In this document: positions 118 to 33,039 of the stretch, piece by piece
Position numbering within the stretch: the first letter of the stretch is position 1
Layout: each line of letters starts with the position of its first letter
DNA from: Saprospiraceae bacterium
GTDB taxonomy: Bacteria; Bacteroidota; Bacteroidia; Chitinophagales; Saprospiraceae
Direction of reading: 5' to 3'
DNA: 33,169 nucleotides
Assembly: GCA_022841745.1 (NCBI GenBank)
Contig: JALHQW010000078.1
Location: 1-33,169 of the forward strand
Program-made: the position numbers and the translations under genes
Notes under the pieces: model-generated
Told to the model about the DNA's origin: nothing
Databases searched by the model: none
Seen by the model: only the letters and a program-made list of their open reading frames with translations

Positions 118-337
118 AAATAATTGGTTTTTTAGTGGTTGGTGCTTCCCATAGGGGTGAATCGCAAAAATGGGACATAGCTACGCCCAAAGCCATCGGA
201 TATTCAGGTAGAAATGAGGGCTATTGTGTTTTACTAATCACATAATTAAGTGGAAAATCAACGGCTTGCAGATTCCAGCAGTCCCCCAATCCGAAATCCG
301 CAATCGTAAATCCGCATTTGTCATTCCCGTAGGGAAC
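118..337. other. Intergenic region with a single repeat arm and a small hairpin
   Basis: No gene is visible. Bases 286-316 are a run of the word AATCCGAAATCCGCAAT, the same word that forms the right arms of the palindromes inside mutY and aroB, but here no partner arm follows. Bases 324-336 form a short hairpin (TTCCC-gta-GGGAA) directly downstream of the outer-membrane gene that ends at 338, so it could serve as its transcript end, although no T-tract is seen. Confidence 0.5.
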
Positions 338-1212: not shown

Positions 1213-1818
1213 TCAATCACGGTCCCAGTCGTCGTCCCCAAACCCACCGAAGCGCAGCGTGAGCGTGCCACCGAAGCTGGAGAGGTCGTCGTTCTTGAAG
1301 CCGCCGACGCCATCGAAGCCGTTGACCCAGCGGTAAGAGGCCGTGGCAGCGATGCGGAAGAAGGAGAAGACGTTCAACTCCAGGCCCAGTTCCGGCGTGG
1401 TGACGAAGATGCTGCTGCGGTCGGAATTGAGTTCTACATCGTCAAAAGCCGTGAGTTTATAATTGGCCTTGCCCCAACCGAGCTTCACGGAGGCGTAGGG
1501 GTGGACGACCCGATGCTGCAAGGGCGTGTAGCCAATCCAGAAGCCGCCGTGTTTGAACTTGAGGGATTCGTTGCCGAGGGCATTGTCCAGGTTGAAAGTA
1601 GCCGTGCCCATGCCATAGCCACCGAGGTAGAAATCGTTGAGCACGAGGGCACCGCCACCGCCGCTGACCACCTCCACGTCATTGTTGAGGTTGGTGTATT
1701 CAATGATGGGCGCTCCCCAGCCGCCAACTCGGTCCACGTCACTGAACATGGTTTCGTCCTTTTGGGCAAACAAGGCTGTTGCTGAAAGCAAAAAACAGAT
1801 TACGATTGCGTTTTTCAT
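1213..1818 (-). CDS. Small outer-membrane beta-barrel-like protein (paralog 2)
   Basis: A 201-residue protein with a signal peptide ending ALFAQ, followed by beta-strand-like Gly/aromatic segments (GGYGMGTATF, KHGGFWIGYTP, SVKLGWGKANY) and a terminal LTLRFGGFGDDD. It aligns over its whole length with the neighbouring 338-964 product, so the two arose by tandem duplication. It lies downstream of the STN-domain repeat protein on the same strand, separated from it by a palindrome. It probably sits in the outer membrane; no ligand or role can be read from the sequence. Confidence 0.75.
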   Translation of the reverse strand: MKNAIVICFLLSATALFAQKDETMFSDVDRVGGWGAPIIEYTNLNNDVEVVSGGGGALVLNDFYLGGYGMGTATFNLDNALGNESLKFKHGGFWIGYTPLQHRVVHPYASVKLGWGKANYKLTAFDDVELNSDRSSIFVTTPELGLELNVFSFFRIAATASYRWVNGFDGVGGFKNDDLSSFGGTLTLRFGGFGDDDWDRD

Positions 1819-1834
1819 TGTTACATTGTTTCAT

Positions 1835-1921
1835 GGCTTCATTGTTTCATGGCTTCATTGTTTCACTGTTGCCGCCCATGCGAGCAACCATGAAACAATG
1901 AAGCCATGAAACAATGAAGCC
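1835..1921. repeat. Palindromic tandem-word element filling an operon gap
   Basis: Two 38-nt arms, 1835-1872 and 1884-1921, are reverse complements with two mismatches. Each arm is built from tandem copies of the 16-nt word GGCTTCATTGTTTCAT. The loop is 11 nt. The element occupies nearly the whole gap between the stop of the STN gene (1924) and the start of the OMP gene (1818), so a strong RNA hairpin would separate the two reading frames. Confidence 0.85.
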
Positions 1922-1923
1922 GT

Positions 1924-3693
1924 TCAAAACCTAAACCCCGCATTAACGCCCACCCAAGCTTTTAGGTTGGTGTCGGCGCTGAGGTCTTCGTTTATCAAAG
2001 CGTAGGGCACCACGGGCGACTTGATGATTCCGGTCTCGGCATTGCGGAGCTGCGACACCATCACATTGGCCGTGGGGCCGAGGAAGAAGCCGATGCTACT
2101 GCCGAGCTGGTGGTTCCAGAGCCAACGGAATTGGCCGATGCTGTTCAACGTGTTCGTCCATGGCTCGCTCTCGTTGATGTGCATCGCCATCAGTTCCCAG
2201 TTCAAGCTGCTCCTTTGAGACAGCTTAGTGACCTTGCCTATGCCGTAGCCGATTCCCCAGATATAAGAGCCATCGCCCGGCGGAACCCTCGCTCCTACAT
2301 GAAAGATGTTGTAAAATCTGTTTGCCCCTAGTTTGAGCTGAAAATTTCCATGTAAAATTTCACTTCCGTAAATTTCAGCCTTGTTGTAGCCTCGTTTTAC
2401 GATGTTGATAAGCGCAATAGGCACCCCGCTCACCGTGTCGGAAATATTGATAAGGCCAATTTGAAGGCCCCGCATATTGCCTTTTGCACGGTTAAAGGTG
2501 CCGAACTGGCCTACCTGCACGTCATCGGCCCTGTTGAAAAGGCCGCTTATCTGCACCTTGGTGTTGCCGCCGCTGGTGTTGAACACGCCCGCTGCCTGCC
2601 ATTTCGAACTGCCCTTTGTGCGGTTGAAGCCACCAGCAGCCTGAAACTTCGAGTCGCCACCCGTTTTATTGAAAAGGCCGGAGGCTTGTAGTGCCCTCGT
2701 GTTGCCACCTGCCACGTTGAACAGGCCAGAGGCCTGCATCCCGGTCATGTCGCCCCGCACCATGTTGGCGAAGCCAGCTGCTTGGGCTGCCTCGGCTTTG
2801 TTCGCAAAATTGACGACACCGGCCGCTTGGAAGCCTTTCGTGCTGCCACCCGCATAATTGAAGATGCCACCGAACTGCGTTCCGGTCATGTTGCGGTTCA
2901 CCTTGTTGCCGAGGCCAGCGGCCTGAAAGCCTGTCATATCGGTTTTCACCATGTTCAGGCCGCCACCGATTTCCATGCCGTTCACAGCGCCGTTTACGCC
3001 CCAGATGACATTGAGCGAGAGGTTGTTACTCACGTCGTCACTCTGTCGGGTATTGGTGCCAACGAATGGCAAAATAGATACCTGCGCCACCCTTTTCTCA
3101 GAAGTGGGTCGGCGGCCCCAACTATCGGCATCGTAGCGCCATTTCTCAAAATTCAGTAGGGTTTGATCAAAAGGATGGGTGCTAACCTCATGGGTAATGG
3201 GTTGCACATTGGGCGTTTCCAAGGCCAGGACGGTATCACGATTGCTGGTCGAAACCATTTTTTCCGCTTCGGGATTTGGTTCGTTCGTGACCAAAACGGC
3301 AGGGGGAGTAGGGTTTGCTTCGGGGTCGGAGGTCTTTTTCTTGGGTGCGGGCTGTTTGATGCCAACGTCCTTGTTGATTGGTTTGGAAGGGTCGCTTCGC
3401 AGCACGATATGGTTTCCAACGAGCATGTAGCCAATGGTCACGTTCTCGAAAAGCCTTTCTAGCGCTGTGGCAAGCGGCATGTCAACGACCTTGGCACTGA
3501 TGCGCTGGCGCACGTTCACCTGTTCGGTGCTGTAGGAAAACGGGATTTGGTAGCGTTGTGTGAGGTCGGTGAGCGCCTCTTTGATTCGGGTATTGCTGTA
3601 TTCGAAAGTGACTTTTTTGGTAAGCATGCCACTTTGCGCCAATAAGCCATTGGCGAGCAAAAAAAATAGGTAGATGGCTTGGCTTTTCCTCAT
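1924..3693 (-). CDS. STN-domain protein with a long array of short beta-type repeats
   Basis: A 589-residue exported protein. Residues 1-19 look like a signal peptide. Residues about 25-100 match the STN domain (secretin/TonB N-terminus) known from FecA-type receptors and FecR partners: VTFEYSNTRIKEAL, then PLATALERLF and GNHIVLR. A Pro/Lys-rich linker follows. Residues about 235-430 are some eleven repeats of 15-16 residues with the core (F/L)QAAGxFNxxxG, resembling LA_2272-type surface repeats, and a C-terminal region could be a beta domain. No TonB plug or barrel is present, so this is not a TonB-dependent receptor. The FecR-like gene lies directly upstream on the same strand with a 42-base gap. 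I infer a sensor or surface protein working with that regulator; the ligand is unknown. Confidence 0.75.
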   Translation of the reverse strand: MRKSQAIYLFFLLANGLLAQSGMLTKKVTFEYSNTRIKEALTDLTQRYQIPFSYSTEQVNVRQRISAKVVDMPLATALERLFENVTIGYMLVGNHIVLRSDPSKPINKDVGIKQPAPKKKTSDPEANPTPPAVLVTNEPNPEAEKMVSTSNRDTVLALETPNVQPITHEVSTHPFDQTLLNFEKWRYDADSWGRRPTSEKRVAQVSILPFVGTNTRQSDDVSNNLSLNVIWGVNGAVNGMEIGGGLNMVKTDMTGFQAAGLGNKVNRNMTGTQFGGIFNYAGGSTKGFQAAGVVNFANKAEAAQAAGFANMVRGDMTGMQASGLFNVAGGNTRALQASGLFNKTGGDSKFQAAGGFNRTKGSSKWQAAGVFNTSGGNTKVQISGLFNRADDVQVGQFGTFNRAKGNMRGLQIGLINISDTVSGVPIALINIVKRGYNKAEIYGSEILHGNFQLKLGANRFYNIFHVGARVPPGDGSYIWGIGYGIGKVTKLSQRSSLNWELMAMHINESEPWTNTLNSIGQFRWLWNHQLGSSIGFFLGPTANVMVSQLRNAETGIIKSPVVPYALINEDLSADTNLKAWVGVNAGFRF

Positions 3694-5032: not shown

Positions 5033-5803
5033 ATGAATCCCAGTTTATTACCTAAGATAGAAGTCATCAGCAATGCCGTAAAGCCACCGCCCCTTGGCCT
5101 GCGCCGCCGAATCGCAGTGCTGCTTCCGCACAACTACCACAATACCGACAAACGCTACCCCGTCCTTTACCTGCAAGACGGCCAAAACCTATTGGAACAC
5201 CGCTCCCCGTTCGGCAACTGGCATGTTGACAAACGCCTTGCAAACATGGCCGAGCATGGCTTAGGCGACCTCATCGTAGTGGCCATTGACCATGCCGAGG
5301 AAGACCGCATCCGGGAGTTTTCGCCGCCAGAGGTGACGAAGTTCGGCCCCAGCCTCGGCAAGCAGTACGCCCATTATATGGCAGAGGAACTGAAGCCCTA
5401 CGTGGACGCCAATTTCCGCACCCTGCCCGACCGCAAGCACACGGGCGTCGGAGGCAGCAGCATGGGCGGGCTTATCAGTGTTTACAGCGGTTTTATCTTC
5501 CCGGAGGCTTTCGGCAAGATGATGATTTTCTCTCCTTCGCTTTGGCTTTCGCCAAAGATTTATTTCCACGCCATCAATTTTTTCAACCCATTTCAGACAA
5601 AAATATACCTTTACGCAGGCGGCAACGAGGGGGCCAATATGGTACCCAACGTGCAGCGCTTGAAGGCTGCCCTACAGCGCAAAGGCTTGGACGGCAGCAA
5701 GATTGAGTTCAATGTCTCCATTGACCCGCACGGGGAACACAACGAAGCCAAATGGGGCGAAGAGTTCCCGAAGGCAGTGGAGTGGCTTTTTTTCAAGGAT
5801 TGA
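5033..5803 (+). CDS. Alpha/beta-hydrolase, putative esterase (enterochelin-esterase/esterase D type)
   Basis: A 256-residue protein of the putative-esterase family. The N-terminal part has LRRRIAVLLPHNYHNTDKRY followed by PVLYLQDGQNLLE, typical of this group. The nucleophile is Ser143 in the elbow GGSSMGG (GxSxG). A later Asp and the His in the DPHGEHNEAKWGEEFP segment probably complete the triad. There is no signal peptide, so it is probably cytoplasmic. It lies just upstream of glycogen synthase on the same strand; the 77 bases between stop and next start are wholly a palindromic repeat that includes the esterase stop codon. The substrate cannot be told from the sequence; the position suggests but does not prove a carbohydrate ester. 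Confidence 0.8.
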   Translation: MNPSLLPKIEVISNAVKPPPLGLRRRIAVLLPHNYHNTDKRYPVLYLQDGQNLLEHRSPFGNWHVDKRLANMAEHGLGDLIVVAIDHAEEDRIREFSPPEVTKFGPSLGKQYAHYMAEELKPYVDANFRTLPDRKHTGVGGSSMGGLISVYSGFIFPEAFGKMMIFSPSLWLSPKIYFHAINFFNPFQTKIYLYAGGNEGANMVPNVQRLKAALQRKGLDGSKIEFNVSIDPHGEHNEAKWGEEFPKAVEWLFFKD

Positions 5804-5878
5804 AGGACTGAATAAAAGAAGGATTGAAGGCTGGGCCACGTCCTTCAATCCTCCAATCCTTCAATCCTTCAATCCTTT
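5795..5878. repeat. Palindromic tandem-word element between esterase and glgA
   Basis: The left arm (5795-5830) repeats GGATTGAAGG and the right arm (5841-5878) repeats CCTTCAATCC. The element includes the last codons and the TGA of the esterase and ends two bases before the ATG of glgA at 5881. The frame of glgA is open upstream through the right arm to an ATG at 5824, but those 19 residues are only translated repeat. Confidence 0.85.
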
Positions 5879-8999: not shown

Positions 9000-10262
9000 A
9001 TGGCGGCCAAGGACAATCACCTGTTTTTCGTAGAAAACCTGTTCGCATGGCACGAAGCCAATCCCCGCCCATTGCCCTGGAAGGGCGAACGGAACCCCTA
9101 CCTTATCTGGCTCTCTGAAATTATTTTGCAACAAACGAGAGTGGAGCAGGGCCTGCCCTATTTCGAGCGGTTCAAGGCGGCCTACCCAAGCGTGACCCAC
9201 CTCGCCGATGCCCCCGAAGATGAGGTAATGAAGCTTTGGGAGGGCCTCGGCTACTACTCCCGTGCCCGCAACCTCCACGCTACGGCCAAGCATATTGCGT
9301 ACAACCTAAACGGCTCTTTTCCAAGTACTTACGAAGGCATCCGCTCCCTAAAAGGCGTCGGCGACTACACGGCAGCGGCCATTGCCTCCTTTGCCTACGA
9401 CCTGCCCCACGCCGTGGTGGACGGCAATGTGTATCGGGTGCTCTCCCGCTATTTCGGCATCGAGACGCCGATTGATACGACGGAGGGGAAAAGGGTGTTT
9501 GCGAGGCTTGCGCAAGCGCTGATTGAGATTGCGGATTTGCCGATTGCGGATTGCGGGATTGCGGATTGCGGATTGGAGATTGCGGATTTGCCCCTGACCC
9601 CTAAAGGGGAACCTAAACAGGGAAGTGCAGAGCAGAATTTGATTGCGGGTTTCGGATTGCAGATTGCGGATTTGCACGATGCCCCCAATCCGAAATCCGA
9701 AATCCGAAATCCGCAATACAACCAGGCCATCATGGACTTCGGCGCCACGCACTGCACCCCGGCAGCGCCGAAATGCCCAAGCTGCCCCATGCGGGAGCGC
9801 TGCGTGGCTTTTTTGGATAAAAAAACGGGGTTGCTGCCCATCAAATCCAAGAAGCTGGAGCGGCGTCAACGGTTTTTCAACTATTTGATTTTCAATCGCT
9901 TGAACGAGGTCTTCATCAAAAAACGCAGCGAGAAGGACATTTGGCAAAACCTCTACGATTTTCCGCTCATCGAAACGGACAGCTTGCAGGACGACCACCG
10001 CTTTTTGACCAAAAACAAAACCTGCCAAGCGTGGCTGGGCGAGTCGGATTGGTCGTTGCGACGGGTCTCGCCACCACAGCGGCAGGAGCTGACGCACCAG
10101 CGCATCGTAGCCACGTTCTGGGAGTTGGAGGTGGGCAAGGATTTTTTGCCAAAAGAAGAAACCTGGATGGCAATGGAACGGGAAAAAATCTCAAATTTTG
10201 CCTTTCCAAAGGTCATAGATTTGTACATCAACCAAAAGTTTTTACCTTTAGAACTCTTTTAA
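9000..10262 (+). CDS. mutY: A/G-specific adenine glycosylase MutY with an in-frame repeat insertion
   Basis: A 420-residue DNA repair glycosylase that removes adenine opposite 8-oxoguanine. The helix-hairpin-helix glycosylase domain has catalytic Glu40 (LSEIILQQTRVEQ), the HhH loop LKGVGDYTAAA and catalytic Asp141 (VVDGNVYRVL). The 4Fe-4S cluster ligands are Cys252, Cys259, Cys262 and Cys268 (C-x6-C-x2-C-x5-C). The C-terminal NUDIX-like recognition domain follows. Residues about 176-240 do not belong to the family: they are the translation of a palindromic repeat (9525-9719), inserted just before the conserved NQAIMDFGATHCTP segment without breaking the frame. All catalytic and cluster residues are kept, so the protein is probably functional. 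The next gene is ssb. Confidence 0.95.
   Translation: MAAKDNHLFFVENLFAWHEANPRPLPWKGERNPYLIWLSEIILQQTRVEQGLPYFERFKAAYPSVTHLADAPEDEVMKLWEGLGYYSRARNLHATAKHIAYNLNGSFPSTYEGIRSLKGVGDYTAAAIASFAYDLPHAVVDGNVYRVLSRYFGIETPIDTTEGKRVFARLAQALIEIADLPIADCGIADCGLEIADLPLTPKGEPKQGSAEQNLIAGFGLQIADLHDAPNPKSEIRNPQYNQAIMDFGATHCTPAAPKCPSCPMRERCVAFLDKKTGLLPIKSKKLERRQRFFNYLIFNRLNEVFIKKRSEKDIWQNLYDFPLIETDSLQDDHRFLTKNKTCQAWLGESDWSLRRVSPPQRQELTHQRIVATFWELEVGKDFLPKEETWMAMEREKISNFAFPKVIDLYINQKFLPLELF
9525..9719. repeat. In-frame palindromic repeat inside mutY
   Basis: About 195 bases (65 codons). The left side has tandem GATTGCGGATTGCGG words and the right side tandem AATCCGAAATCCG words, the reverse complement of GGATTTCGGATT. 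A second small palindrome (CCCCT-aa-AGGGG) sits in the middle. It encodes IADLPIADCG and PKSEIRNPQY-like peptides, nearly the same as those in aroB (residues 245-268). The length is a multiple of three and there is no stop in the mutY frame. Confidence 0.9.
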
Positions 10263-11690: not shown

Positions 11691-13184
11691 GTAACTGCTT
11701 AGGAGGTGCAAGCCTGATTTAAAAAAGTATTACCATCCAAAGCATTTTTAAGTTCATTGAAAACGCTGTGTTGATGCTTGCGGGCGGTGGATATAAACCC
11801 AAATATGCGGGCATATATACTTGCGCCCTCGAATGTCCTGAATGCTCCGGCCACCTTTTGCTTGGTTTTGGCAGGTCGCAAGTCCCTTTCTGCCTGGTTA
11901 TTGGTAAAGGGCACAGCCTCATTGAACGCAAAGGCAAGCACCGCAGCCTTGTGCTCCCTCAACCGAACCAGCAAGTTCCGTCCTTTCGTGGCCTTGGGCC
12001 TTCCCCTTCCGCTTTCCGATTTTTCCGGTGGAGGTTCCTCCAGTTCGGCGTATCCCAATATACTGTCAAAGAGGAGCAGTGCTTTCCGCTGTTCTTCGTC
12101 GCTCACCTTTCCAGTGCCTTTTTCGGACAGGTGGTACAATGCGAGCAGGTACCTCCTGAACCAGGTTGCCCATGCCGTGCCCTTTTCTTCCAGGGCGGCC
12201 AGTTCCCTCAACAGGTGCGCACCGCATATGGCGTGCAGGCAACCCTTGAACTTGAAGTAGCTGCCCCAGCAGTCGTGCACGGCCCATCCCTTGAACGCCG
12301 GCAGGTTGGAGGCGGCGCCCTGCAGGGCCTCCGTGCCCCGTTTTGCGTGGACGAAAAGGTAGGTGAACAGCCCGTTGCAACAGGTGTGGGCCAGTGCAGG
12401 CTTCCCGCTACCCTAAGCCCCGTCTCGTCAAAATGGTTGACCAGGCTTTGCAGCAGGCCGGCCCTGAGCAGCTTTTCAACCGGCCCCAGCAAATTGAAGC
12501 ATTTCTGGGTCGAGCTGATGATGGTGGCCGGGTTGATGGCAAAGCCGTACAGGTCCCCGAAGAGCAGCTGCACCTTTTTTACCGGGAGCTTGAACGCCAC
12601 GTTCAGCAGGACTATCAGCGCCCTCACCCCAGTGCCGTATTGCAGGCGGGCGTTCACCCCGTCCGGGAAGGCGCCCTCGTTGTAGCTGCCGCACCGCTCG
12701 CAGGTGCAGCCCAGGAGGACGTGCTCCGTCACCTCCAGCCTTGGCTGGGGCAGGTCGAATACCTGCCTGACCTCGACGACATTTGCCTTGGACTTGTCCA
12801 GTGCATGCCCACAGCCGCATTTGTCGGGGAGTATCTCGTTGAAATGGTCGGGCTGCTCGCAGATCTCTAGCGTTTTGCCCTTGTGGCCAGGCTTGCCACC
12901 GGGCTTCCTGCCCTTGCCCCTGCTAAACGCAGGCCTTGAAGTGGGCTTTTGCAGGCCATCGGAAGAAGGGGGCTTGCTGCTGTTCCTGCTGTTCTTGTTC
13001 AAACGGTCCGTCAGCCCTGCTTGGTTTACCAAAAGGATGTTGACCTGCTTTTGCAAGGCCGTGATCTGTTCTTGTTGCTGCAAAATCAAATCGTGGCAGG
13101 ACGATATGTCGTTTGGCAAGTTCAATTTAAGGGCATAAAAATAAAATAATAATCCCCATTCTGATGGGGGTGCTAAACTGTTAC
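11691..13184 (-). mobile_element. IS66-family insertion sequence
   Basis: An element of about 1.49 kb with terminal inverted repeats GTAACTGCTTAG (from 11691) and GTAACAGTTTAG (reverse complement ending at 13184), beginning with GTAA as is typical of IS66. It carries a single transposase of the tnpC type, frameshifted; the tnpA and tnpB partners of larger IS66 members are absent. No 8-bp target duplication is visible (cttttgac left, gaaaaaag right), so ends may have been lost or rearranged. It cuts the tyrosine recombinase stub on its left. Confidence 0.8.
11699..13125 (-). pseudogene. IS66-family transposase, frameshifted
   Basis: The N-terminal frame (12208-13125) has a coiled-coil start, the IS66 signature NSRNSSKPPSSDG, a Cys zinc motif (CGCGHAL ... 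CTCERCG) and the first catalytic Asp in NHFDETGLRV. The frame then shifts: the true continuation (AHTCCNGLFTYLFVHAKRGT...) is in the other frame and joins the downstream frame that holds the second Asp (AVHDCWGSYF) and the Glu in NNQAERDLRP. Restoring one G in the run near 12388-12392 (TGGCCC read as TGG GCC C) rejoins both halves over the catalytic domain. So the gene is recently broken by a single-base deletion, or the base is a sequencing error. Confidence 0.88.
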
Positions 13185-15038: not shown

Positions 15039-17531
15039 ATGCAAAAAAACAAATACGCCTGCATACACGGCCATTTTTACCAGCCGCCACGGGAGAGTGC
15101 CTGGCTGGAAGTCATCGAGCTGCAAGAGAGCGCAGCGCCGTTTCATGACTGGAACGAGCGCATCAACTTCGAGTGCTATGCCCGCAACACGGCGGCCCGC
15201 ATCAACGGCGAGCGGGACGCCATCAGCAAAATCGTGAACAACTACGCCCAGATAAGTTTCAACTTCGGGCCGACGCTGCTCTCGTGGCTCGAAACCGCCG
15301 ACCCCGACACCTACCGGGCCATCCTCGATGCCGACCGGCAGAGTATGGAGCGCTTCGGCGGGCATGGCAACGCATTGGCGCAAGCCTACAACCATACCAT
15401 CCTGCCGCTGGCCAACGAGCGGGACAAGGTGACGCAGGTGCGCTGGGGCATCGCCGATTTCAAGCGGCGCTTTGAACGAAAGCCAGAGGGCATGTGGCTG
15501 CCCGAGGCCGCCGTGGACACCGCTACGCTGGAGGTTTTGGCGGCGCATGACATTCGCTTCACAGTGCTGGCACCGAGGCAGGCGAAGGCGTTCCGAAAAA
15601 TCGGGGCGAAGGACTGGACACCGCTACCCCACGAGAACGTGGATCCCCGCCGGGCCTACCTTTGCAACCTGCCCTCCGGCAAGCAGATAGACTTGTTTTT
15701 TTACGATGGAAACATAGCGAAGGATGTGGCCTTCCAAGGGCTGCTGGGCAGCGGGGCGACTTTTGGGCAGCGAATGGTCAGCACCTTCGACAACAATGAC
15801 GAGCCACAGCTATCGCATGCCGCCACGGACGGCGAGAGCTACGGCCACCACCACGAATGGGGCGAAATGGCACTGGCCTTTTGCCTCGATTTTATCGAAG
15901 AAAAAACGCCTGCCTCACTGACGAACTACGGCCAGTTCCTGGAGCTGCACCCGCCCGTTTACGAAGTGCAAATCCATGAAAACAGCTCATGGAGTTGCGC
16001 TCATGGCGTGGAGCGCTGGCGCACCGACTGCGGCTGCAACACGGGGGGCGAGGCGCACTGGAATCAAGCCTGGCGTGGCCCACTGCGGGATGCGCTCGAC
16101 TGGCTGCAAGTCGAACTGACCCGTGAGTACGAACTTTCCGGCAGCCAATGGCTAAAGGACATCTGGGAGGCGAGGAACGAGTACATCAGCGTCATCCTCG
16201 ACCGCTCGGCGGAAAACGTGGAGCATTTCATCGAAAAACATGCAAGCCGTGAGCTGACAAAAACGGAGCGCATCAACCTGCTGCGCTTGCTCGAAATCCA
16301 GCGGCAATGCCAGTTGATGTACACGAGTTGTGCTTGGTTTTTCTCGGAGGTGTCTGGCATCGAGACGAACCAAGTGCTGCAATACGCCTTGCGGGCGACC
16401 TATCACCACTACAATGCCACGGGCGTCAGCCTTGCCCCGCAGTTCATCCAGCGGCTGGAGCGGGTGCCGAGCAATCGCTACCAGAACGCCGCCGAGAGCT
16501 TCCGGATACACGTGCAACCCTCGCAACTGACCTTGACCGGGGTGGCCATGCACTATGCCGCTTCGTCCATCTTCGAGGAGTACGAGGACTCGGTCAATTT
16601 CCTGCACTTCCGGGCCGATAACGAGGTGTTCGAGCGCATACCGGCGGGCGGGCAGCAATTGGCCATCGGGCGCACGACGGTCACTTCCAAACTGACCTAT
16701 TCGGAGAAGCATTTCAGCTTTGCCGTGCTATACCTTGGCCAGCAGCACATGGTCGGCAGCATCTCGCTGGATATGCCCCGTACAGTCTTCGACCACCTAC
16801 AATCGCAGATGGCCACGGCCTTCATCAGCGCCAACCTTGGCGATGTCATTAGCCTGATTCAGGGTTTTGGGGCAGACAAGTTTTCTTTCAAGAACTTGTT
16901 CAAGGATGAAAAGCTCAAAATTTACAAGCAGATTCTGGCAAAAAGCTACCCAGCGGTGGAATCGGCGATGAAGGACTACTACGAAGACAATTACCAACTG
17001 ATGAACGGGATGCTACGGGACGATATCCCTGTGCCGGGCACTTGGCGGGGTGTCACGCAGTTCGTGATTGAGCAGGAGTTGCAACGTTTTTTTGAAAACG
17101 GCAAATTAAGCGTGCGGATGCTGCGCCACCTGGTGGGTGAGCATGCACTATGGGGCGTGCAATTCATGGATGTGAAGCGGTTGAAATTCGTATCCGGCGA
17201 GCGCATTTTTGCGGAGCTAAAAAGCATCACCCACGATGCCGAGGGTGCGGAGAACCTGCGGCGGCTTTCCCGTGTCATCGAAATATTGGGACAGTTGGAC
17301 ATCCTGCCGGAGCTATGGAAAAGCCAAAACCACTATTACCATCTGGCGCAGCAGCACTTGGCAGCAGGTTGGGTGGGTGTTAGTGAGGCATGGAAAATGC
17401 GATTTTTGGAACTGGGTAAATGGCTGAGGCTAACGGTAGACGATGGACGGCTAACGGTAGACGATGGACGGCTAACGGTTGGCGGAATTAGCGCTGTGCC
17501 AACCGTCAACCGTCCACCGTTAGCCGTTTAG
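15039..17531 (+). CDS. GH57 glycoside hydrolase with DUF3536 (alpha-amylase/alpha-mannosidase-like)
   Basis: An 830-residue cytoplasmic-looking protein (no signal peptide). The N-terminus has the GH57 motif HGHFYQPPRE. The probable nucleophile is Glu156 in GMWLPEAAVD and the probable acid/base is Asp264 in AATDGESYGHHHEWGE. The central and C-terminal parts match the DUF3536 group (WSCAHGVERWRTDCGCNTGG). GH57 members hydrolyse or transfer alpha-glucans, which fits glgA and glk nearby; the precise activity is unknown. The last 30 or so residues (RLTVDDGRLTVDDGRLTVGG and on) are the translation of a palindromic repeat at 17428-17525, so the native C-terminus was probably near ELGKWL. The TAG stop shares four bases (TTAG) with the stop of the convergent next gene. 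Confidence 0.88.
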   Translation: MQKNKYACIHGHFYQPPRESAWLEVIELQESAAPFHDWNERINFECYARNTAARINGERDAISKIVNNYAQISFNFGPTLLSWLETADPDTYRAILDADRQSMERFGGHGNALAQAYNHTILPLANERDKVTQVRWGIADFKRRFERKPEGMWLPEAAVDTATLEVLAAHDIRFTVLAPRQAKAFRKIGAKDWTPLPHENVDPRRAYLCNLPSGKQIDLFFYDGNIAKDVAFQGLLGSGATFGQRMVSTFDNNDEPQLSHAATDGESYGHHHEWGEMALAFCLDFIEEKTPASLTNYGQFLELHPPVYEVQIHENSSWSCAHGVERWRTDCGCNTGGEAHWNQAWRGPLRDALDWLQVELTREYELSGSQWLKDIWEARNEYISVILDRSAENVEHFIEKHASRELTKTERINLLRLLEIQRQCQLMYTSCAWFFSEVSGIETNQVLQYALRATYHHYNATGVSLAPQFIQRLERVPSNRYQNAAESFRIHVQPSQLTLTGVAMHYAASSIFEEYEDSVNFLHFRADNEVFERIPAGGQQLAIGRTTVTSKLTYSEKHFSFAVLYLGQQHMVGSISLDMPRTVFDHLQSQMATAFISANLGDVISLIQGFGADKFSFKNLFKDEKLKIYKQILAKSYPAVESAMKDYYEDNYQLMNGMLRDDIPVPGTWRGVTQFVIEQELQRFFENGKLSVRMLRHLVGEHALWGVQFMDVKRLKFVSGERIFAELKSITHDAEGAENLRRLSRVIEILGQLDILPELWKSQNHYYHLAQQHLAAGWVGVSEAWKMRFLELGKWLRLTVDDGRLTVDDGRLTVGGISAVPTVNRPPLAV
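17428..17525. repeat. Palindromic tandem-word element at the GH57 C-terminus
   Basis: The left arm (17428-17483) holds tandem copies of the 20-nt word GCTAACGGTAGACGATGGAC; the right arm (17498-17525) is GCCAACCGTCAACCGTCCAC followed by CGTTAGCC. The arms pair imperfectly. The element lies inside the GH57 frame and ends 2 bases before the shared stop codons at 17528-17531, so its hairpin could end transcription from both sides. Confidence 0.85.
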
Positions 17532-20405: not shown

Positions 20406-20951
20406 ATGAAAAAAATCATACCCATCCTCGCCATGTTGACCCTTTTGCTCACCGCCTGCAAGACGACCAGGTACACCCCCGAAAAATTCCCCGTCCGGCA
20501 AATCGTCTTTGGCGACGGCGGCGGCTTCGCTGGCATCGAGACTTCATATACCCTGCTCGAAAACGGCCAGATTTTCAAGCAGGTAGGCGTGGAAGGGGCC
20601 TATACGGAACTAAAGGCCATCAAAGCCAAACAGGCCAAGGAACTGTTCGACAAGGTGAACTCCCTGCACATTTTCAAGCTCGATATTGACAAGCCGGGCA
20701 ATATGTACTACTTCCTGCGCCAAGCAACCGACAACCTCGACAGCCGGGTAACCTGGGGCGCTGGCGACTACATGCCGCCACAGGGCCTTGTCAGCGTTTA
20801 CCGGGAGCTAAAGGGTATTGCCAAGGCACAGCAGGATGCCGCCGAAGCCAAGCCGACCAAGCAAAAACCCAAGTCGGACAAGGACAAAAAGCCCGACACC
20901 AAGAAGGACGACACCACCACCACGCCCAAAGAGGAGAATACGGGTTGGTAA
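20406..20951 (+). CDS. Lipoprotein of unknown function
   Basis: 181 residues from the ATG at 20406, chosen because it opens a lipoprotein signal peptide (MKKIIPILAMLTLLLTAC, acylated Cys18). The body (TPEKFPVRQIVFGDGGGFAG, SYTLLENGQIFKQ, then ELFDKVNSLHIFKLDIDKPG and NMYYFLRQ) looks like a small beta-rich domain known to me only from hypothetical Bacteroidota proteins. The C-terminus is a disordered Lys/Asp/Thr/Pro tail. It probably sits on a membrane face in the envelope. The M4 protease follows on the same strand after 182 bases. Confidence 0.75.
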   Translation: MKKIIPILAMLTLLLTACKTTRYTPEKFPVRQIVFGDGGGFAGIETSYTLLENGQIFKQVGVEGAYTELKAIKAKQAKELFDKVNSLHIFKLDIDKPGNMYYFLRQATDNLDSRVTWGAGDYMPPQGLVSVYRELKGIAKAQQDAAEAKPTKQKPKSDKDKKPDTKKDDTTTTPKEENTGW

Positions 20952-21133
20952 GCCAACCCACCGGCGGCTACCCTATTGTTGCTGCGCAACACCTAATTCG
21001 CTATACAAATACTGTACGTGCGGGCCATTGCATCGTGATGCTGCTCGCCCAATTTGGCGACTTCCACCTGTCCATGGTAGGTCGTCAAAATCCATCAGCA
21101 ACCATTAACCACCATATCTTCAATCCTACCATC

Positions 21134-24100
21134 ATGAAAAAACATTACCTGACATTGTTGGCAATTATCGTTGCTGCGCAAGTCTTTGGCCAAATGAAGC
21201 CCACCCGGCCAAGCAAATCGGCTTCACAGCCCTTTCAAATCGAAAACATTGCCCCACCGCTGTCCATTAGGGCCAGCGTCCCGGCGGCAGAGCCCAGCCT
21301 TTTCGACCAGCCTTTCCAGCCAAAGCCGATGAAAATGATACCAAGGCCCGTCAGCGGCCAGCCCTCCCTCATGGCGCAGGTGTCGGAGGAAACGGGCACA
21401 CCTTATATGATACGGGGCGAAATGGCGACCGACCCGGCCAAGTCAACAGCGGAACAAGTGCAGGGTTACCTGTTGGCCGCCAAGTCGGTGCTAAAATTGG
21501 ATGACCCAACCAAGGAATTTGAAATCAAACTGACCACTACCGACGAACTTGGCATCCGGCATACCCGGCTGCGGCAGTTATGGCAGGGCGTTCCCGTGCA
21601 TGGCGCAGAGGCTATTTTGCATGAAAAAGGCGGGAAGTTCTACCTGTTCAATGGCCGCTATCACCCTTCGCCAAAATTGGCTGATGTGGTTCCGACCATT
21701 CAGATGGCGGCTGCCAGCCAAATTGCGCTAGCGCACGTAAGCGAAAAAGAAGTGGTGAAGCCGCTTGCCGAAGGCGACCTCCAATTGCTCGCCATGCCGC
21801 AGCAGACCAAGGCCGAATTGGTCATTTACCATAAAAACAAAACACCCCACCTTGCATGGCACGTGACCGTGGTGCCGAACCTTGCCGCCCGCTACAGCTA
21901 CTTCGTGGACGCAAAGACGGGCGAGGTGCTCAACCACTACTCGGAGCTTTGCAAGATTGCGGGACACTTTCATGGAGTTGGCAGTTCGACAGTGGGCAGT
22001 GGGCAGCCAGTGTCTGCTAACCCCGGACTTGACTGCCCACTGCCAACTGTCGAACTGCCAACTGAAGTTGACCCCGACGGCCCCGCAACGGCCAATGCCA
22101 ACGACCTGTTCGGGCAATCAAGGCTGATAAATACCTATCAGGTGGGCAATAGTTTTTTCTTGATTGATGCTTCGCAAACGATGTTGAACAACAACCAGTC
22201 CGTGTTCCCTAACGAGCCGGTGGGCGTGATTTGGACGATTGATGCAGAGAACACCTCGCCGGAGAACGATAATTTCGGGGCCGTGCACGTCACCTCTGGC
22301 AACAATAATTGGAACAACCCCAAGGCCGTAAGCGCCCATTACCATGCCGAGAAGGCTTACGATTATTTCAAGAATACCTTCAATCGCAATAGCATCAACG
22401 GCCAAGGCGGCAATATCATATCATTAATAAATGTGGTGGAAAGCGATGGCGCCCAAATGGACAACGCCTTCTGGAACGGGCAGGCGATGTTTTATGGCAA
22501 CGGTGACCAAGCCTTTACCGCCCCCTTGCAAAAAGCATTGGACGTATCGGGCCACGAGATGTCGCATGGGGTCATACAGGCCACTGCCAATTTGGAATAC
22601 CTGAACGAAAGCGGTGCCCTGAACGAGAGTTTTGCAGATGTTTTTGGGGCGATGATAGACCGTGACGACTGGAAAATGGGCGAGGACCTGACCAGCACCC
22701 AGTTTTTTCCCACGGGTGCCCTGCGTGACATGAGCGACCCGCACAATGGCGGTAACAGCCTCAACGACAATGGCTGGCAGCCCGCCCACTACAACGAGCG
22801 CTTCCAGGGCGATGAGGACAATGGCGGCGTGCATATCAACTCTGGCATCGTCAACAAGGCGTTCTTCCTTTTTGCCAGCAATGCCAGCGTGGGCAAGGCA
22901 AAGGCCGAGAAGGTCTATTACCGGGCATTGACCGAGTACCTTACCCACTCCAGCAACTTCGTGGACTGCCGCTTGGCCGTGGTGCAAGCTGCTACCGACC
23001 TGCACGGCGCAAATTCCGTGGAGGTGAATGCCGCAAAGTCCGCCTTTGATGCAGTGGGCATAGGCTCCAGCGGTGGCTCCACCGGCAACCAGGACGACTT
23101 GGACACCAACCCCGGCGAGGAATTCATCCTGATGACCGACCTCAACGAGCAGCAGCTTTACATCTATACGCCTGACGGCACGGCCATCTCCGACCCACTT
23201 ACCGATATCTCCCCATTCAGCAGGCCCAGCGTCACCGACGACGGCTCAACTATTGTCTATATTGATGAGGACAACAAGATGAGGAGCATCAATATTGACT
23301 GGAATGCTGGCTCATTCACTACGCAGGTGATTCAGGACGACCCTATTTGGCGCAATGTGGCCATTTCAAAGGATGGGAACCGCTTGGCAGCCTTATTGCT
23401 CGACTCGGACAACGATCCTGATAACGACAATTTCCTCTACATTTATGACTATAGCGAAGCCGGCGGCTTCTTTGAGTTCAAGTTGACCAACCCTACCACG
23501 GTTCAAGGTGGCCCAGAAAGCGACAACGTGAGCTTTGCCGACGTGATTGAATGGGATCACACGGGCCAGTGGGTCATGTACGATGCCCTCAGCACCATCA
23601 GTACGGGCACACAGGATATTGAATTCTGGGACATCAACTTCATCTATGCCTGGAACGGCACTTTCTATGGCAATGGCTATATCGAAAAGCTGTTCAGCAG
23701 CCTGCCCGAAAACGTGAGCGTGGGCAACCCGACCTTCTCCAAGAACTCGGACTACATCATCGCATTTGATTATTTCGATGAGGCCAACAATGAATACAAT
23801 TTGTATGGCTACAATATCGAAACGAGCGATGCAGGCGTCATTTTCCAAGGCAGCGACCTCCATTGGCCAAACTATTCGGTGGACGATACCGAACTTGTTT
23901 TCAATGCCTTTTCGAACTCGGGAAACCAAGTGCTGGCCTTCATTCCTTTGGAAAACGACAAAATAACTCCAAGCGGCAATCCCAGTATTTACCTACAAGA
24001 TAAACAACTCGGCGTTTGGTTTGCCAACGGCGATAGGGTGCTGGGCAATAAGGACATTATCGCAGAGCAAAACATCCGCCTGTACCCGAACCCCGTCAGC

Positions 24101-24316
24101 GGGCAGTTGAACCTCGATTTCTCCACCAAAACCGCTGGCGACGTACAGCTGCAGGTCTTCGACCTGATGGGCAGGTTGGTGATTTCGGAGAAAATCAGCG
24201 CAAGTGCTGGCGATAACCGCCACCGCATTTCCACGGAAGGGCTTGCCAACGGGCAGTACCTCGTGCGCTTGGGCATGGCAGAGGGGCAGGCGGCGATGAA
24301 GTTTGTGAAGCAATAA
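21134..24316 (+). CDS. Secreted M4 (thermolysin-family) metalloprotease with T9SS sorting domain
   Basis: 1060 residues from the ATG at 21134, chosen because it opens a signal peptide (MKKHYLTLLAIIVAAQVFGQ). The order is FTP/PepSY-type propeptide (YFVDAKTGEVLNHYS), M4 catalytic domain, a WD/TolB-like beta region (SKDGNRLAALLLD, SVDDTELVFNAFS), then the type IX sorting domain (LYPNPVSGQLNLDF to the end). Zinc ligands are His474 and His478 of HEMSH and Glu498 of NESFAD; Glu475 is catalytic and His567 in GGVHINSG stabilises the transition state, all at thermolysin spacing. A palindromic repeat (21976-22063) is translated in frame at residues about 282-310, at the boundary of propeptide and mature enzyme. 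Probably exported and attached or released by the type IX system. Confidence 0.93.
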   Translation: MKKHYLTLLAIIVAAQVFGQMKPTRPSKSASQPFQIENIAPPLSIRASVPAAEPSLFDQPFQPKPMKMIPRPVSGQPSLMAQVSEETGTPYMIRGEMATDPAKSTAEQVQGYLLAAKSVLKLDDPTKEFEIKLTTTDELGIRHTRLRQLWQGVPVHGAEAILHEKGGKFYLFNGRYHPSPKLADVVPTIQMAAASQIALAHVSEKEVVKPLAEGDLQLLAMPQQTKAELVIYHKNKTPHLAWHVTVVPNLAARYSYFVDAKTGEVLNHYSELCKIAGHFHGVGSSTVGSGQPVSANPGLDCPLPTVELPTEVDPDGPATANANDLFGQSRLINTYQVGNSFFLIDASQTMLNNNQSVFPNEPVGVIWTIDAENTSPENDNFGAVHVTSGNNNWNNPKAVSAHYHAEKAYDYFKNTFNRNSINGQGGNIISLINVVESDGAQMDNAFWNGQAMFYGNGDQAFTAPLQKALDVSGHEMSHGVIQATANLEYLNESGALNESFADVFGAMIDRDDWKMGEDLTSTQFFPTGALRDMSDPHNGGNSLNDNGWQPAHYNERFQGDEDNGGVHINSGIVNKAFFLFASNASVGKAKAEKVYYRALTEYLTHSSNFVDCRLAVVQAATDLHGANSVEVNAAKSAFDAVGIGSSGGSTGNQDDLDTNPGEEFILMTDLNEQQLYIYTPDGTAISDPLTDISPFSRPSVTDDGSTIVYIDEDNKMRSINIDWNAGSFTTQVIQDDPIWRNVAISKDGNRLAALLLDSDNDPDNDNFLYIYDYSEAGGFFEFKLTNPTTVQGGPESDNVSFADVIEWDHTGQWVMYDALSTISTGTQDIEFWDINFIYAWNGTFYGNGYIEKLFSSLPENVSVGNPTFSKNSDYIIAFDYFDEANNEYNLYGYNIETSDAGVIFQGSDLHWPNYSVDDTELVFNAFSNSGNQVLAFIPLENDKITPSGNPSIYLQDKQLGVWFANGDRVLGNKDIIAEQNIRLYPNPVSGQLNLDFSTKTAGDVQLQVFDLMGRLVISEKISASAGDNRHRISTEGLANGQYLVRLGMAEGQAAMKFVKQ
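21976..22063. repeat. In-frame palindromic repeat inside the M4 protease gene
   Basis: Two 31-nt arms, 21976-22006 and 22033-22063, are reverse complements with one mismatch and are made of GGCAGT/CAACTGCC-type words. The loop contains CCAGTGTCTGCTAACCC. The left arm matches the repeat downstream of ssb (10806 on). It encodes a Ser/Gly/Val/Pro-rich peptide in the protease frame. Confidence 0.9.
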
Positions 24317-30460: not shown

Positions 30461-31855
30461 ATGAAAAACCGATTCCTCAATTGCTTCCTTTTGGTTGCTT
30501 TGTTGCCATGCTTCGCAAAGGCACAAGAAGGCAGCTTTCCCACCCCCTATCTTCCACCCCACCGAGCAGACATGTGGGAACTTGGCATTGGCACGGGCAC
30601 AGCCATGTCCTTCGGCGACATTCAGCCAAATCCCGGCATCGGCGCAGGGTTCCATTTGCGCAAGGCCATTGACCACTTGCTTTCGGCGAGGCTGGAAGGC
30701 TTTGTCGGAAGCCTAAACCAGAATGATGGCCTCAACGGCACTTCCAAGACCAAACTCCAGACAGGCTCATTGCAATTGCTGGCCTCCATCAACAGCCTCA
30801 CTTGGAGCGAGCTGCCCCGCCGCCGTATCAATGCCTATCTATTTTTAGGAGCCGGCATCAACCGGTTTGAAGTGGACGCCATCAAGGCCATCATACCCGA
30901 TTTGAAATCAGTTAGCCCTACCATTCAGACCCATGTTGATGGTGGTTTTGGAATGGCGCTCCGTTTGTCGGATAGGGTCAACCTGGGCATGGAGATGAAG
31001 GTGCTCACTTTTTTTGGAAGGGACGCCGACCTGCTCGACGGGGTGAACCGTGACGAAAACGACGTGATAGGCTATGGCTCGCTTCGCCTCAATTTCAACC
31101 TCGGCGACACCAAGGCAAAAACGGAGCCGCTCTACTGGGTAACCCCCATGCACCAACTCATACAAGATGTGACTGAACTGAAGCTGCGCCCTACTTTCGA
31201 CCCCACCGACTCGGATGGCGATGGCGTCATTGACCTGCTGGACGCCGACAATGCCACCCCCCGTGGCGTTGCCGTGGACACCCGTGGCATGCCGCTCGAT
31301 AGTGATGGCGACGGCCTTCCCAATTTCTTGGACGACGAGCCTTTTATCCACAAAAACCGACCGGCTCCGCCTACCGAGAACGGTATTCGGGATATCGTAA
31401 GGGACGAGGTGGAAAACCTAATGGAAATGGAACCCGATGCATTCGGCATCATGGAGTGGTTCTTGCCCAATACCCATTTCGATGTGGATAGCTATGCTAT
31501 TCGGGAGGCGGAACTGGGCAACCTTTCCAGCATTGCCAAGGTGCTAAAAGCCAATTCGAGGGTAAGGCTTGTGGTCACCGGCTTCGCCGACAAAACTGCC
31601 TCCGACCAGCAGAACTTAACGCTTTCCTACCAGCGGGCTTTTGCCGTCGTTGACCATTTCGTGAACGTGCATGGCCTGCCCCGAAGCCGTTTCCTGCTGC
31701 GTTACAATGGCGAAGACTCCACCCTTGTGCCAACCCTCAACAGTTCAATGGTGAACCGTAGGGTAGAGTTCAGGGTGGCCAATAAGCAGGACGTGGAAAT
31801 GGAAAATCCCGTACCGTCCGTCAAGAAGGATGTGGAGCAGCGGGGCTTTAAATAG
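30461..31855 (+). CDS. OmpA-family outer-membrane protein with calcium-binding repeats
   Basis: A 464-residue protein. The signal peptide (about residues 1-22) ends in FAKAQ. An N-terminal beta-barrel-like domain follows (LGIGTGTAMSFGD, FHLRKAIDHLLSARLEGFVG, YGSLRLNFNLG). Two thrombospondin-type-3-like Ca motifs come next (DSDGDGVIDLLD and DSDGDGLPNFLDD). The C-terminal OmpA peptidoglycan-binding domain (about 340-450) has FDVDSYAIREAELGNLSSIA, VTGFADKTASDQQNLTLSYQ and ends MVNRRVEFRV. It probably links outer membrane and cell wall. aroB follows after 33 bases on the same strand. Confidence 0.92.
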   Translation: MKNRFLNCFLLVALLPCFAKAQEGSFPTPYLPPHRADMWELGIGTGTAMSFGDIQPNPGIGAGFHLRKAIDHLLSARLEGFVGSLNQNDGLNGTSKTKLQTGSLQLLASINSLTWSELPRRRINAYLFLGAGINRFEVDAIKAIIPDLKSVSPTIQTHVDGGFGMALRLSDRVNLGMEMKVLTFFGRDADLLDGVNRDENDVIGYGSLRLNFNLGDTKAKTEPLYWVTPMHQLIQDVTELKLRPTFDPTDSDGDGVIDLLDADNATPRGVAVDTRGMPLDSDGDGLPNFLDDEPFIHKNRPAPPTENGIRDIVRDEVENLMEMEPDAFGIMEWFLPNTHFDVDSYAIREAELGNLSSIAKVLKANSRVRLVVTGFADKTASDQQNLTLSYQRAFAVVDHFVNVHGLPRSRFLLRYNGEDSTLVPTLNSSMVNRRVEFRVANKQDVEMENPVPSVKKDVEQRGFK

Positions 31856-31888
31856 AAAAAAGTCCGGCCATTCCGCTATTCTTGCAGC

Positions 31889-32998
31889 ATGGTTACGCTG
31901 CAACTAAAAGATTACGATATTTCCATCGGCGAAATGGGGATGCCGCTTCGGGCGCTCGTTGCCGCAGGCAACTACACCAAAATCGCCGTGCTGGTGGACA
32001 ACAACACCTACCGCCATTGTTTTCCCTATTTTCTGCAAAACATTGATTTCGAGGTAGTTGCCATCGAAATACCCGCTGGCGAGCTGCACAAGGGGCTTGA
32101 CACCTGCCGCTTTATCTGGTCGGAAATGATGCGCCTCGGCCTCGACCGCCGCTCCCTGCTCATCAACCTCGGCGGTGGCGTCATCGGAGACATGGGCGGC
32201 TTTTGCGCAGCAACCTATCTGCGGGGCATTGACTTTGTGCAGGTACCCACGACCCTGCTCTCGCAGGTGGACGCCTCTGTGGGCGGCAAGCTGGCCATTG
32301 ACTTCAACGGCGTGAAGAATAGCATCGGCGTGTTCCAGAACCCTGTGGCCGTGCTGGTTGACCCCGCTTTTTTACGAACGCTGCCCCTTACGGAAATCCG
32401 CAGCGGCTTCGCCGAGGTGTTCAAGCATGCCCTCATCGCCGATGCGGCGCAATGGCGGGAATTGCAGCAAATCACCGACCTGCTGGCCGTGGACTGGGCG
32501 AAATACCTCGCTCCATCCCTCTCCATCAAACAGCGCATCGTGGAAGAAGACCCTACGGAAAAAGGCATCCGCAAGGCGCTGAATTTTGGGCATACCATTG
32601 GCCACGCAGTGGAAAGCTATTCGATTGCGGATTGGGGATTTCGGATTTCGGATTCCGCCCCGCAATCCGAAATCCGAAATCCGAAATCCGCATTGATGCA
32701 TGGCGAAGCCGTCGCCCTCGGCATCGTCTGTGAGGCGTGGCTGTCCCATAAAATATTGGGGCTTTCGGCGGCGGAACTGGACGAAATCGTGGCCTTTGTG
32801 AAACGCTTCTACCCGCATTGGCCGCTGGCCGAGGAGGACTTTCCCGCTGTTTTTGAAATCATGAAAAAAGACAAGAAAAACGTGGGCGGGCGCATCAATT
32901 TTACGCTGCTGCCAGCCATCGGTGAGGCGAGGATTGACCAGTTTTGTGAGGTGGGGGTGATTGAGGAGGCGTTGCGGTTTTATTGTAACATGGACTGA
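31889..32998 (+). CDS. aroB: 3-dehydroquinate synthase AroB with an in-frame repeat insertion
   Basis: A 369-residue enzyme of the shikimate pathway (DAHP to 3-dehydroquinate, NAD- and metal-dependent, cytoplasm). Family motifs are clear: LGGGVIGDMGGFCAATYLRG, VPTTLLSQVDASVGGKLAID, SGFAEVFKHALI, LNFGHTIGHAVES and LMHGEAVALGI. The metal ligands are the Glu of AEVFKH and the His residues of NFGHTIGHA (His235) and LMHGE (His271). Residues about 245-268, between those two His, are not of the family: they are the translation of a palindromic repeat (32624-32692) in frame. Ligands on both sides are kept, so the enzyme is probably active with a longer loop. Confidence 0.95.
   Translation: MVTLQLKDYDISIGEMGMPLRALVAAGNYTKIAVLVDNNTYRHCFPYFLQNIDFEVVAIEIPAGELHKGLDTCRFIWSEMMRLGLDRRSLLINLGGGVIGDMGGFCAATYLRGIDFVQVPTTLLSQVDASVGGKLAIDFNGVKNSIGVFQNPVAVLVDPAFLRTLPLTEIRSGFAEVFKHALIADAAQWRELQQITDLLAVDWAKYLAPSLSIKQRIVEEDPTEKGIRKALNFGHTIGHAVESYSIADWGFRISDSAPQSEIRNPKSALMHGEAVALGIVCEAWLSHKILGLSAAELDEIVAFVKRFYPHWPLAEEDFPAVFEIMKKDKKNVGGRINFTLLPAIGEARIDQFCEVGVIEEALRFYCNMD
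32624..32692. repeat. In-frame palindromic repeat inside aroB
   Basis: The left arm is ATTGCGG and GGATTTCGGATTTCGGATT (to 32654); the right arm is AATCCGAAATCCGAAATCC and further words (from 32664). The words are the same as in mutY (9525-9719) and the single arm at 286-316. It encodes IADWGFRISD and QSEIRNPKSA. Confidence 0.9.
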
Positions 32999-33008
32999 CA
33001 GTCGTGCC

Positions 33009-33039
33009 TTTCAATTTCTCAGAAAACACATTATCTTTG
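33009..33039 (+). promoter_or_regulatory. Promoter reading into the right-end IS copy
   Basis: TATCTTTG (33032-33039) is an exact -7 match with TTTC (33009-33012) 19 bases upstream. The predicted start of transcription lies close to the first base of the IS copy at 33055. It belongs to the host flank, not to the repeat. Confidence 0.4.

Follow-up and report, generated by a model that had tools for sequence, protein, structure and literature searches.

How does a tandem array of seven-nucleotide words come to lie inside a conserved biosynthetic enzyme without breaking its reading frame, and how does the same word come to recur in a second, unrelated gene 23 kb away? This question is raised by aroB of a Saprospiraceae bacterium (31889..32998, plus strand, of the window, by which we mean the whole stretch of 33,169 nucleotides analyzed here). 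The gene is an open reading frame for a 3-dehydroquinate synthase of 369 residues, with Pfam matches to DHQ_synthase (8.5e-43) and DHQS_C (4.2e-33), and it carries an in-frame heptad hairpin array of 70 nt in all (32623..32692, plus strand).

The aroB array and its counterpart in mutY

Tandem Repeats Finder resolves the aroB array into 32623-32654 (unit GATTGCG) and 32660-32690 (unit CCGAAAT), and the two halves form an inverted repeat (I1) in which a G-rich left arm (32626..32657) is 91% complementary to a C-rich right arm (32661..32692), with 3 nt separating them. The predicted DNA fold has a z-score of -6.12, and none of 200 dinucleotide shuffles folded equally well. In the frame of the gene, codons 32624-32692 (69 nt, 23 codons, ATT GCG to TCC GCA) encode IADWGFRISDSAPQSEIRNPKSA, flanked by ESYS on one side and LMHGE on the other, between NFGH and HGE; the position given in the initial annotation, 32624-32692 in frame, is exact. 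The two histidines that flank the insert, which we take to be metal ligands, are both conserved in two solved DHQS chains that were aligned, and the gap in the alignment falls at the position of the insert.

Comparison with relatives indicates that the stretch is an added loop, as had been claimed. The family search gave an AroB match in 59 of 60 other genomes, and the stretch from NFGH to HGE measures 22 residues in 34 of the 42 genomes read, the eight longer ones, our own included, all being congeners. It is 22 residues in all 29 of the loci from other genera that were fetched and read. Within the genus (G000, the genome of this window, and the congeners G061-G073), AroB was matched in 13 of 14 genomes; the loop is 22 residues in five (G063, G073, G072, G062 and G071) and at least 30 in eight (G000, G067, G070, G065, G068, G066, G061 and G069). 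Array-free homologs among the relatives read thus have a shorter loop rather than the same one, and the array is absent from the AroB of relatives read outside one clade of the genus. Within that clade its length, by flank alignment, runs from 63 to 174 nt, and the AroB of G068 is a patchwork, its left and right arms being built of different words. When the window was compared with 20 related stretches (up to 60 kb per genome, several only 2-15 kb), matches of at least 200 nt were confined to 31855-33021, in and beside aroB, so that the order of genes near aroB is not conserved there; genic sites only, and not intergenic arrays, were therefore compared between genomes.

The second gene is mutY (9000..10262, plus strand; an open reading frame of 420 residues with Pfam HhH-GPD and NUDIX_4), in which an AATCCG-type word lies in frame as it does in aroB. 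A GATTGCG array occupies 9527..9588, in frame and open, and a second array follows at 9642..9717, with arms at 9642-9672 and 9687-9717 and a DNA fold z-score of -6.14. Within this longer insert mutY carries the right arm of the aroB hairpin as 30 identical nucleotides (9686-9715 equals 32663-32692), and the description of a shared repeat word is correct at the level of DNA. The accompanying argument, that nearly the same peptide in both proteins is a sign of mobility, carries no weight. Any 7-nt word yields one cyclic heptapeptide per strand, and similar peptides in MutY and AroB are automatic because the unit length of 7 is coprime with 3: AATCCGA gives NPKSEIR in all three frames and RISDFGF on the opposite strand, neither with a stop. 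The shared peptide was therefore rejected as proof of a moving peptide-coding element, and the common 30 nt of DNA are better evidence than the common peptide. By the same token, the peptides NPKSEIR, NPQSAIR, SLIPHPS and NPSILQS shared among unrelated proteins are read-outs of the repeat and not homology.

The window holds further arrays of this kind. An ACTGCCA array (22032..22064, plus strand) lies in frame and open within a 1123-aa reading frame (20945-24316). An intergenic hairpin of 8-nt words (TTTCATTG / AACCATGA) at 1813..1918, with a fold z-score of -12.58, directly follows the stop of a 589-aa minus-strand reading frame (1924-3693), and another (AAGGATTG / TCCTTCAA) at 5795..5877, with a DNA fold z-score of -8.09, overlaps the end of the reading frame 5033-5803 and precedes the next gene. 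A single degenerate AATCCGA array at 288..314 (TRF score 33) forms no hairpin (fold z-score 0.16). No Rfam match at or above the gathering score was found in the window, and a known RNA family was set aside as an explanation. Elsewhere in the window, the tail of an 830-aa reading frame (17428-17531) consists of 21-nt repeats (GGCTAACGGTAGACGATGGAC, RLTVDDG), apparently the read-out of an array at a gene end, and two minus-strand reading frames of 193 and 305 aa (11699-13125) resemble what we take to be the two halves of an IS66-type transposase.

A repeat with ends close to GCCCCTGACCCCTAAAGGGGAACC / GGTTCCCCTTTAGGGGTCAGGGGC was also observed, at 9590-9620 of the window and in three other loci (L072, about 9490-9600; L074, about 3160-3270; L097, about 5202-5330). 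Its core occurs nine times in 1.63 Mb, with the full end not always present. One end sits in the mutY insert of G000, and the repeat is nested in frame in the aroB arrays of G061 and G069.

Abundance, frame and placement in the genome

The 18-mer TCCGAAATCCGAAATCCG, allowing up to two mismatches, gave 77+98 overlapping matches in the organism's own genome against 0+0 for the reversed pattern. In 833 kb there are 76 arrays of period 7 and 47 of period 8, compared with 0 and 0 in one order-2 Markov shuffle, and periods 9 to 11 together account for 12 arrays at the same score. A larger sample of 1.63 Mb, a non-random 19% of the genome that includes the window and whose contigs were large or chosen by pattern matches, holds 270 arrays of period 7 or 8 in 216 elements. 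The 268 arrays with consensus units of seven or eight letters comprise 80 distinct units. A GATT/AATC core is present in 98 of them (mean 20 and maximum 31 when unit letters are shuffled), and in 256 the rarer of G and C occurs at most once per unit. The aroB insert is thus a member of the heptameric simple sequence repeats (STRR/LSSR). Tandem units of about 7 nt are found at many loci, far above chance, and the number of units varies between related genomes, as seen in the array lengths of AroB, PheT and a radical-SAM protein (L295-b), which differ among sisters.

The initial annotation had proposed that coding copies be counted for frame bias. Of the 216 elements, 7 lie at a contig edge, 31 have no coding flank, 109 have one, 13 lie between opposite genes and 56 have coding flanks on the same strand, the coding call being made by a hexamer model and not by homology. 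Among these 56, the array is read through in frame in 30, lies out of frame in 17 and keeps the frame but with a stop in 9. The 26 cases that are not open were judged intergenic from the position of their stop codon and not from homology: in 20 of them the first stop comes ahead of the array, as at a gene end. In the other six it lies inside the array, and these look like gene ends by eye and could be broken genes. The share of read-through genic arrays in frame is accordingly 30/30, or 30/36 if the six are counted as broken (p about 1e-9 against one third). The count was restricted to periods 7 and 8, and periods 14-16 were excluded because some of the longer-period rows are ordinary coding repeats. 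As an observation in passing, two proteins (L094:4882-4915 and L097:4496-4566) differ in the array that they carry at roughly one position, directly following HEFRTPLT(I/V)ILG, a motif which we take to be histidine-kinase-like.

Inverted repeats were detected in 70 of the 216 elements (one element over 400 nt was skipped), and they have a marked polarity. The 5' arm has more G than C in 66 of the 70 and the reverse in 3, and its G+T content is above one half in 61 and below in 7; more G than C is likewise found in the 5' arm of 15/15 hairpins from congeners and 51/65 from other taxa (8 reverse). An initial control set, 33 inverted repeats lying apart from arrays, was balanced for G+T (14:15). 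A larger control of 80 inverted repeats had the same lean as the arrays (G over C 47:21, G+T 45:21). The G-rich 5' polarity is stronger in arrays than in controls (Fisher p 3e-5) but is not special to arrays. These hairpins are also mostly extragenic: 41 lie between tandem genes, 12 between convergent and 5 between divergent genes, 7 inside genes, and 5 have one side unread. Measured from the stop codon of the gene ending beside it, the hairpin edge has a median distance of 3 nt, and 48 of 68 fall within -10..+15, although no distance control was computed. Hairpins near stop codons with the G-rich strand first are the placement expected of STRR/LSSR and agree with that of the Xanthomonas and Nostoc heptads in the portion of text available from PMC4692102. 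For arrays that lack hairpins, the intragenic share is a lower bound because 109 of the 216 elements have only one flank called.

Beyond this genome, an exact 27-mer occurs in at least 119 stretches of public genome contigs, a count obtained with no control word, with many rows from one acidobacterial bin and most records being metagenome bins; the other records, among the matches listed, are named Verrucomicrobia, Planctomycetes, Chloroflexi, several candidate phyla and more. In the organism's own phylum a 20-mer is present in 7/395 genomes (own included) against 3/395 for the reversed control. Cross-phylum sharing of the word was set aside as an argument, given the metagenome bins and these phylum counts. 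Among the matches listed, the words at cross-phylum loci besides AATCCG[A/C] are mostly not those common here, and with AATCCG words dropped the GATT/AATC core is weakly enriched in other taxa (19/165; shuffle mean 10.6, maximum 19).

Different words at the same site in sister species

By flank alignment, the congeners were read at ten sites that lie inside genes of G000: one each in AroB, MutY, Lnt, MetG, PheT and the radical-SAM protein, and four in one helicase-like protein, with gene names assigned by Pfam. In seven sisters, 62 of the 70 possible readings were obtained, and 35 hold an array, 33 in frame and 2 out of frame. Together with the genic arrays of G000, of which 19% of the genome was sampled, this speaks against the absence of frame bias. 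The 27 readings that lack an array by our threshold all have lengths that are multiples of three. Outside the clade, arrays were found in only 2 of 23 readings (helicase-1 in G073 and helicase-4 in G063); random stretches of the same loci passed the threshold 15 times in 2000 at 60 nt and 28 times in 2000 at 100 nt.

Within the clade, the word of the array at one site changes between species while the reading frame is preserved. With G000 included, the scored words are AAATCCG, AATCCGC, AATGGTG, AATCACT and AATTCCC at AroB; AAATCCG, AATCCGC, AAATTGGG, AATTCCCC and AATCCCC at MutY; AAGGATTG, AATCCGC, AACCGTC, AATCGTC and AAATCCG at Lnt; and AACAATTC, AGGGATG and AATCACC at MetG. Several of these different words at one site are a single letter apart. 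The period also switches between 7 and 8 among sisters at one site, in MutY, Lnt, MetG and helicase-4. Length stays nearly constant despite the change of word at Lnt (63-78 nt) and MetG (48-57 nt), but not at L295-b (45-162 nt) or at AroB. Nor is word replacement universal, for at PheT the AATCCG family persists. These readings suggest that arrays can be overwritten even inside working genes. The two out-of-frame arrays, MutY in G065 and L295-b in G066, may be broken genes, assembly errors or off-states; at the G065 mutY locus (L127) the frame is broken at the array, whose length leaves a remainder of 1 on division by three.

The variant of the word that a site carries can be compared with the rest of the genome. 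Overlapping exact 19-mer matches for AATCCGA and AATCCGC number 28:66 in G000, 19:37 in G061, 7:3 in G065, 100:16 in G066, 15:33 in G067, 4:16 in G068, 10:16 in G069, 20:67 in G070 and 3:0 in G073, and 0:0 in G062, G063, G064, G071 and G072, with reversed controls at 0 in all genomes. The A/C variant of AATCCG[A/C] tends to follow the genome majority, agreeing with it in 17 of 23 scored site readings (38 of 20,000 within-site permutations were as extreme), a result weaker than the permutation figure suggests, as the counts include the test sites, the species are related and left-arm readings were used for AroB. G000 itself agrees with its own majority in 2 of 5 site readings and departs from it in 3, and PheT of G067, below threshold and left out of the test, reads as the minority variant.

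Origin of the arrays and their relation to known repeats

We favor, at a rough probability of 0.57, a combined reading in which slippage, fold-back copying and exchange between loci generate the arrays while selection keeps the in-frame copies in loops and linkers. Slippage during replication would expand, contract and homogenize the units within an array. The inverted arm would arise when the G-rich strand folds back and is copied, giving hairpins that are G-rich at 5' and C-rich at 3'; this step is our conjecture, and the larger polarity control weakens it. Sequence would then pass between arrays at different loci, by conversion or by loss and re-seeding, and a word widespread in the genome would take the place of the one at the site. 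Selection would remove most genic arrays except those in loops or linkers with a net length that is a multiple of three, the remainder being left near stop codons; AroB would need no benefit from its array, only to tolerate it. Slippage would account for unit number and for homogenization within arrays, and purifying selection for their frame and position. Slippage alone is insufficient for the recurrence of words at unrelated loci, the changes of period and the variants that track the genome, which exchange between loci would explain. Such copying is an inference, suggested by the different words at the same site in sisters and by variants that tend to follow the genome. Against the combined reading, the patchwork AroB of G068 and the left arms common to five species could reflect an ancestral composite with differential loss. 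It is tempting to go further and propose genome-wide overwriting, in which arrays of 30-70 nt, including those in the AroB, MutY, MetG and Lnt loops, would from time to time be replaced at many loci from the genome's current pool of words, and would so evolve in concert within a genome while positions and frame are inherited by descent. We hold this stronger form tentatively, as a possibility that the odds do not favor.

Much of the same evidence bears on purely local evolution, in which each array arose once in an ancestor and drifts by slippage and point mutation with no exchange. Neighboring words one substitution apart fit it well (at Lnt, AACCGTC in G068 and AATCGTC in G061, with both units in G061), as does the near-constant length at Lnt and MetG, and published work attributes 7-nt repeats to slippage (Mrazek 2007, as described in the part of PMC4679880 available). 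Identical words at many unrelated loci, site variants that tend to track the genome majority and changes between periods 7 and 8 among sisters at one site (MutY, Lnt, MetG, helicase-4) are harder to reconcile with it, and we consider it unlikely. A transposable element of the REP/RAYT or MITE type, inserting as a unit into permissive sites and tolerated where in frame, is in our estimate improbable. The palindromes are indeed dispersed, the genome has nine Y1_Tnp matches, and some arrays contain a further, nested repeat whose ends are inverted. The arrays themselves show no constant ends, loop or consensus; 268 of them comprise 80 distinct units, and the word, the number of arms and the loop vary between sites. 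Inverted arms, a feature of MITEs, are present in 70 of the 216 elements. At the eight of nine Y1_Tnp loci fetched and examined (L286-L293), palindromes adjoining the transposase gene, as in REP/RAYT systems, were not found: arrays were present in two, none within about 700 nt of the match. The initial suggestion of a mobile or copied element is supported insofar as copies are dispersed and words differ among sisters, but no fixed element with conserved ends was seen.

Two further readings assign the arrays a function, and both seem to us very improbable. Were they contingency loci, gain or loss of a single 7-nt unit would shift the frame and turn the arrays of mutY and aroB into reversible on/off switches, in mutY a switchable mutator. 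A unit length that is not a multiple of three does mean that single-unit slippage must shift the frame, and MutY of G065 is out of frame; yet the sister arrays are in frame in 33 of 35 cases, those of G000 are in frame and open in 30, and the arrays are short and degenerate. If instead the array had a role under selection, in the protein or in the mRNA, whether as a functional loop, an mRNA hairpin or a G-quadruplex, AroB would need it. The predicted hairpin is stable, and quadruplex formation by the G-rich heptads of other genera has been observed in vitro (PMC4692102, as excerpted). Against such a role, congeners with an AroB that otherwise aligns throughout differ in word and array length, and some have no array at all. 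The chances of such a role appear slight, and those of a switch no better.

A comparison with described repeats places these features in context. The heptameric repeats GGGNATC of Xanthomonas and GGGGA(C/T)T of Nostoc, as presented in the available part of PMC4692102, are like ours in having 7-nt G-rich units that are dispersed, mostly intergenic and arranged as singles or inverted pairs, near stop codons on the sense strand and few between divergent genes, and in that array position is often conserved between species (83% of Xcc repeats also occur in Xac). In the same account one word family characterizes a genome and the type is kept at a site, whereas here a genome holds many 7- and 8-nt words, the word at one site differs between species, and arrays lie in frame in conserved enzymes. 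The nearest behavior is that of the P6b stem-loop in the tRNA-Leu(UAA) group I intron of Nostoc, built of Class I (TDNGATT) and Class II (NNTGAGT) heptads according to the extract of PMC4476775. It too is a fixed-site heptad hairpin in which the word has been replaced in several lineages, and Class I shares the GATT core; different heptads at one fixed site in related lineages are what we find at AroB, MutY, Lnt and MetG. P6b is an intron RNA stem-loop with two classes, in contrast to the protein-coding, frame-constrained arrays with many sites and words described here, and aroB, being protein-coding, does not share the tRNA-Leu intron location.

Other systems share single traits. Rickettsia palindromic elements, defined elements of 105-146 bp in protein genes (PMC2229807, in the sections available), are palindromic repeats fused in frame in conserved proteins and tolerated by the enzyme, and in-frame insertion in protein genes is seen here as well; the aroB array, at 70 nt, differs in consisting of short words without an element consensus. 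The TAACTGA direct repeats of Beggiatoaceae, found also in Cyanobacteria and Bacteroidetes, are similarly a heptamer amplified in scattered taxa with the mechanism of spread left open, but, in the text available from PMC4679880, they are a single word with stops in all three forward frames and lie mostly just upstream of start codons. Borg tandem repeats in reading frames keep the frame and give low-complexity peptide, as do ours; in the excerpt of PMC9879509 every such unit is itself divisible by three, whereas with the 7-nt unit found here divisibility by three holds for the net length alone. Within the open-access literature, subscription journals being outside our scope, we found no earlier account of one word giving way to another at orthologous sites under frame constraint in housekeeping enzymes.

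Genic arrays offer a test of why so many bacterial genomes are filled with heptads and of how a single word comes to prevail. In conserved enzymes the gene fixes both orthology and frame, so the replacement of words can be read directly in strain collections. In addition, the arrays show how an enzyme can acquire a loop of arbitrary sequence.
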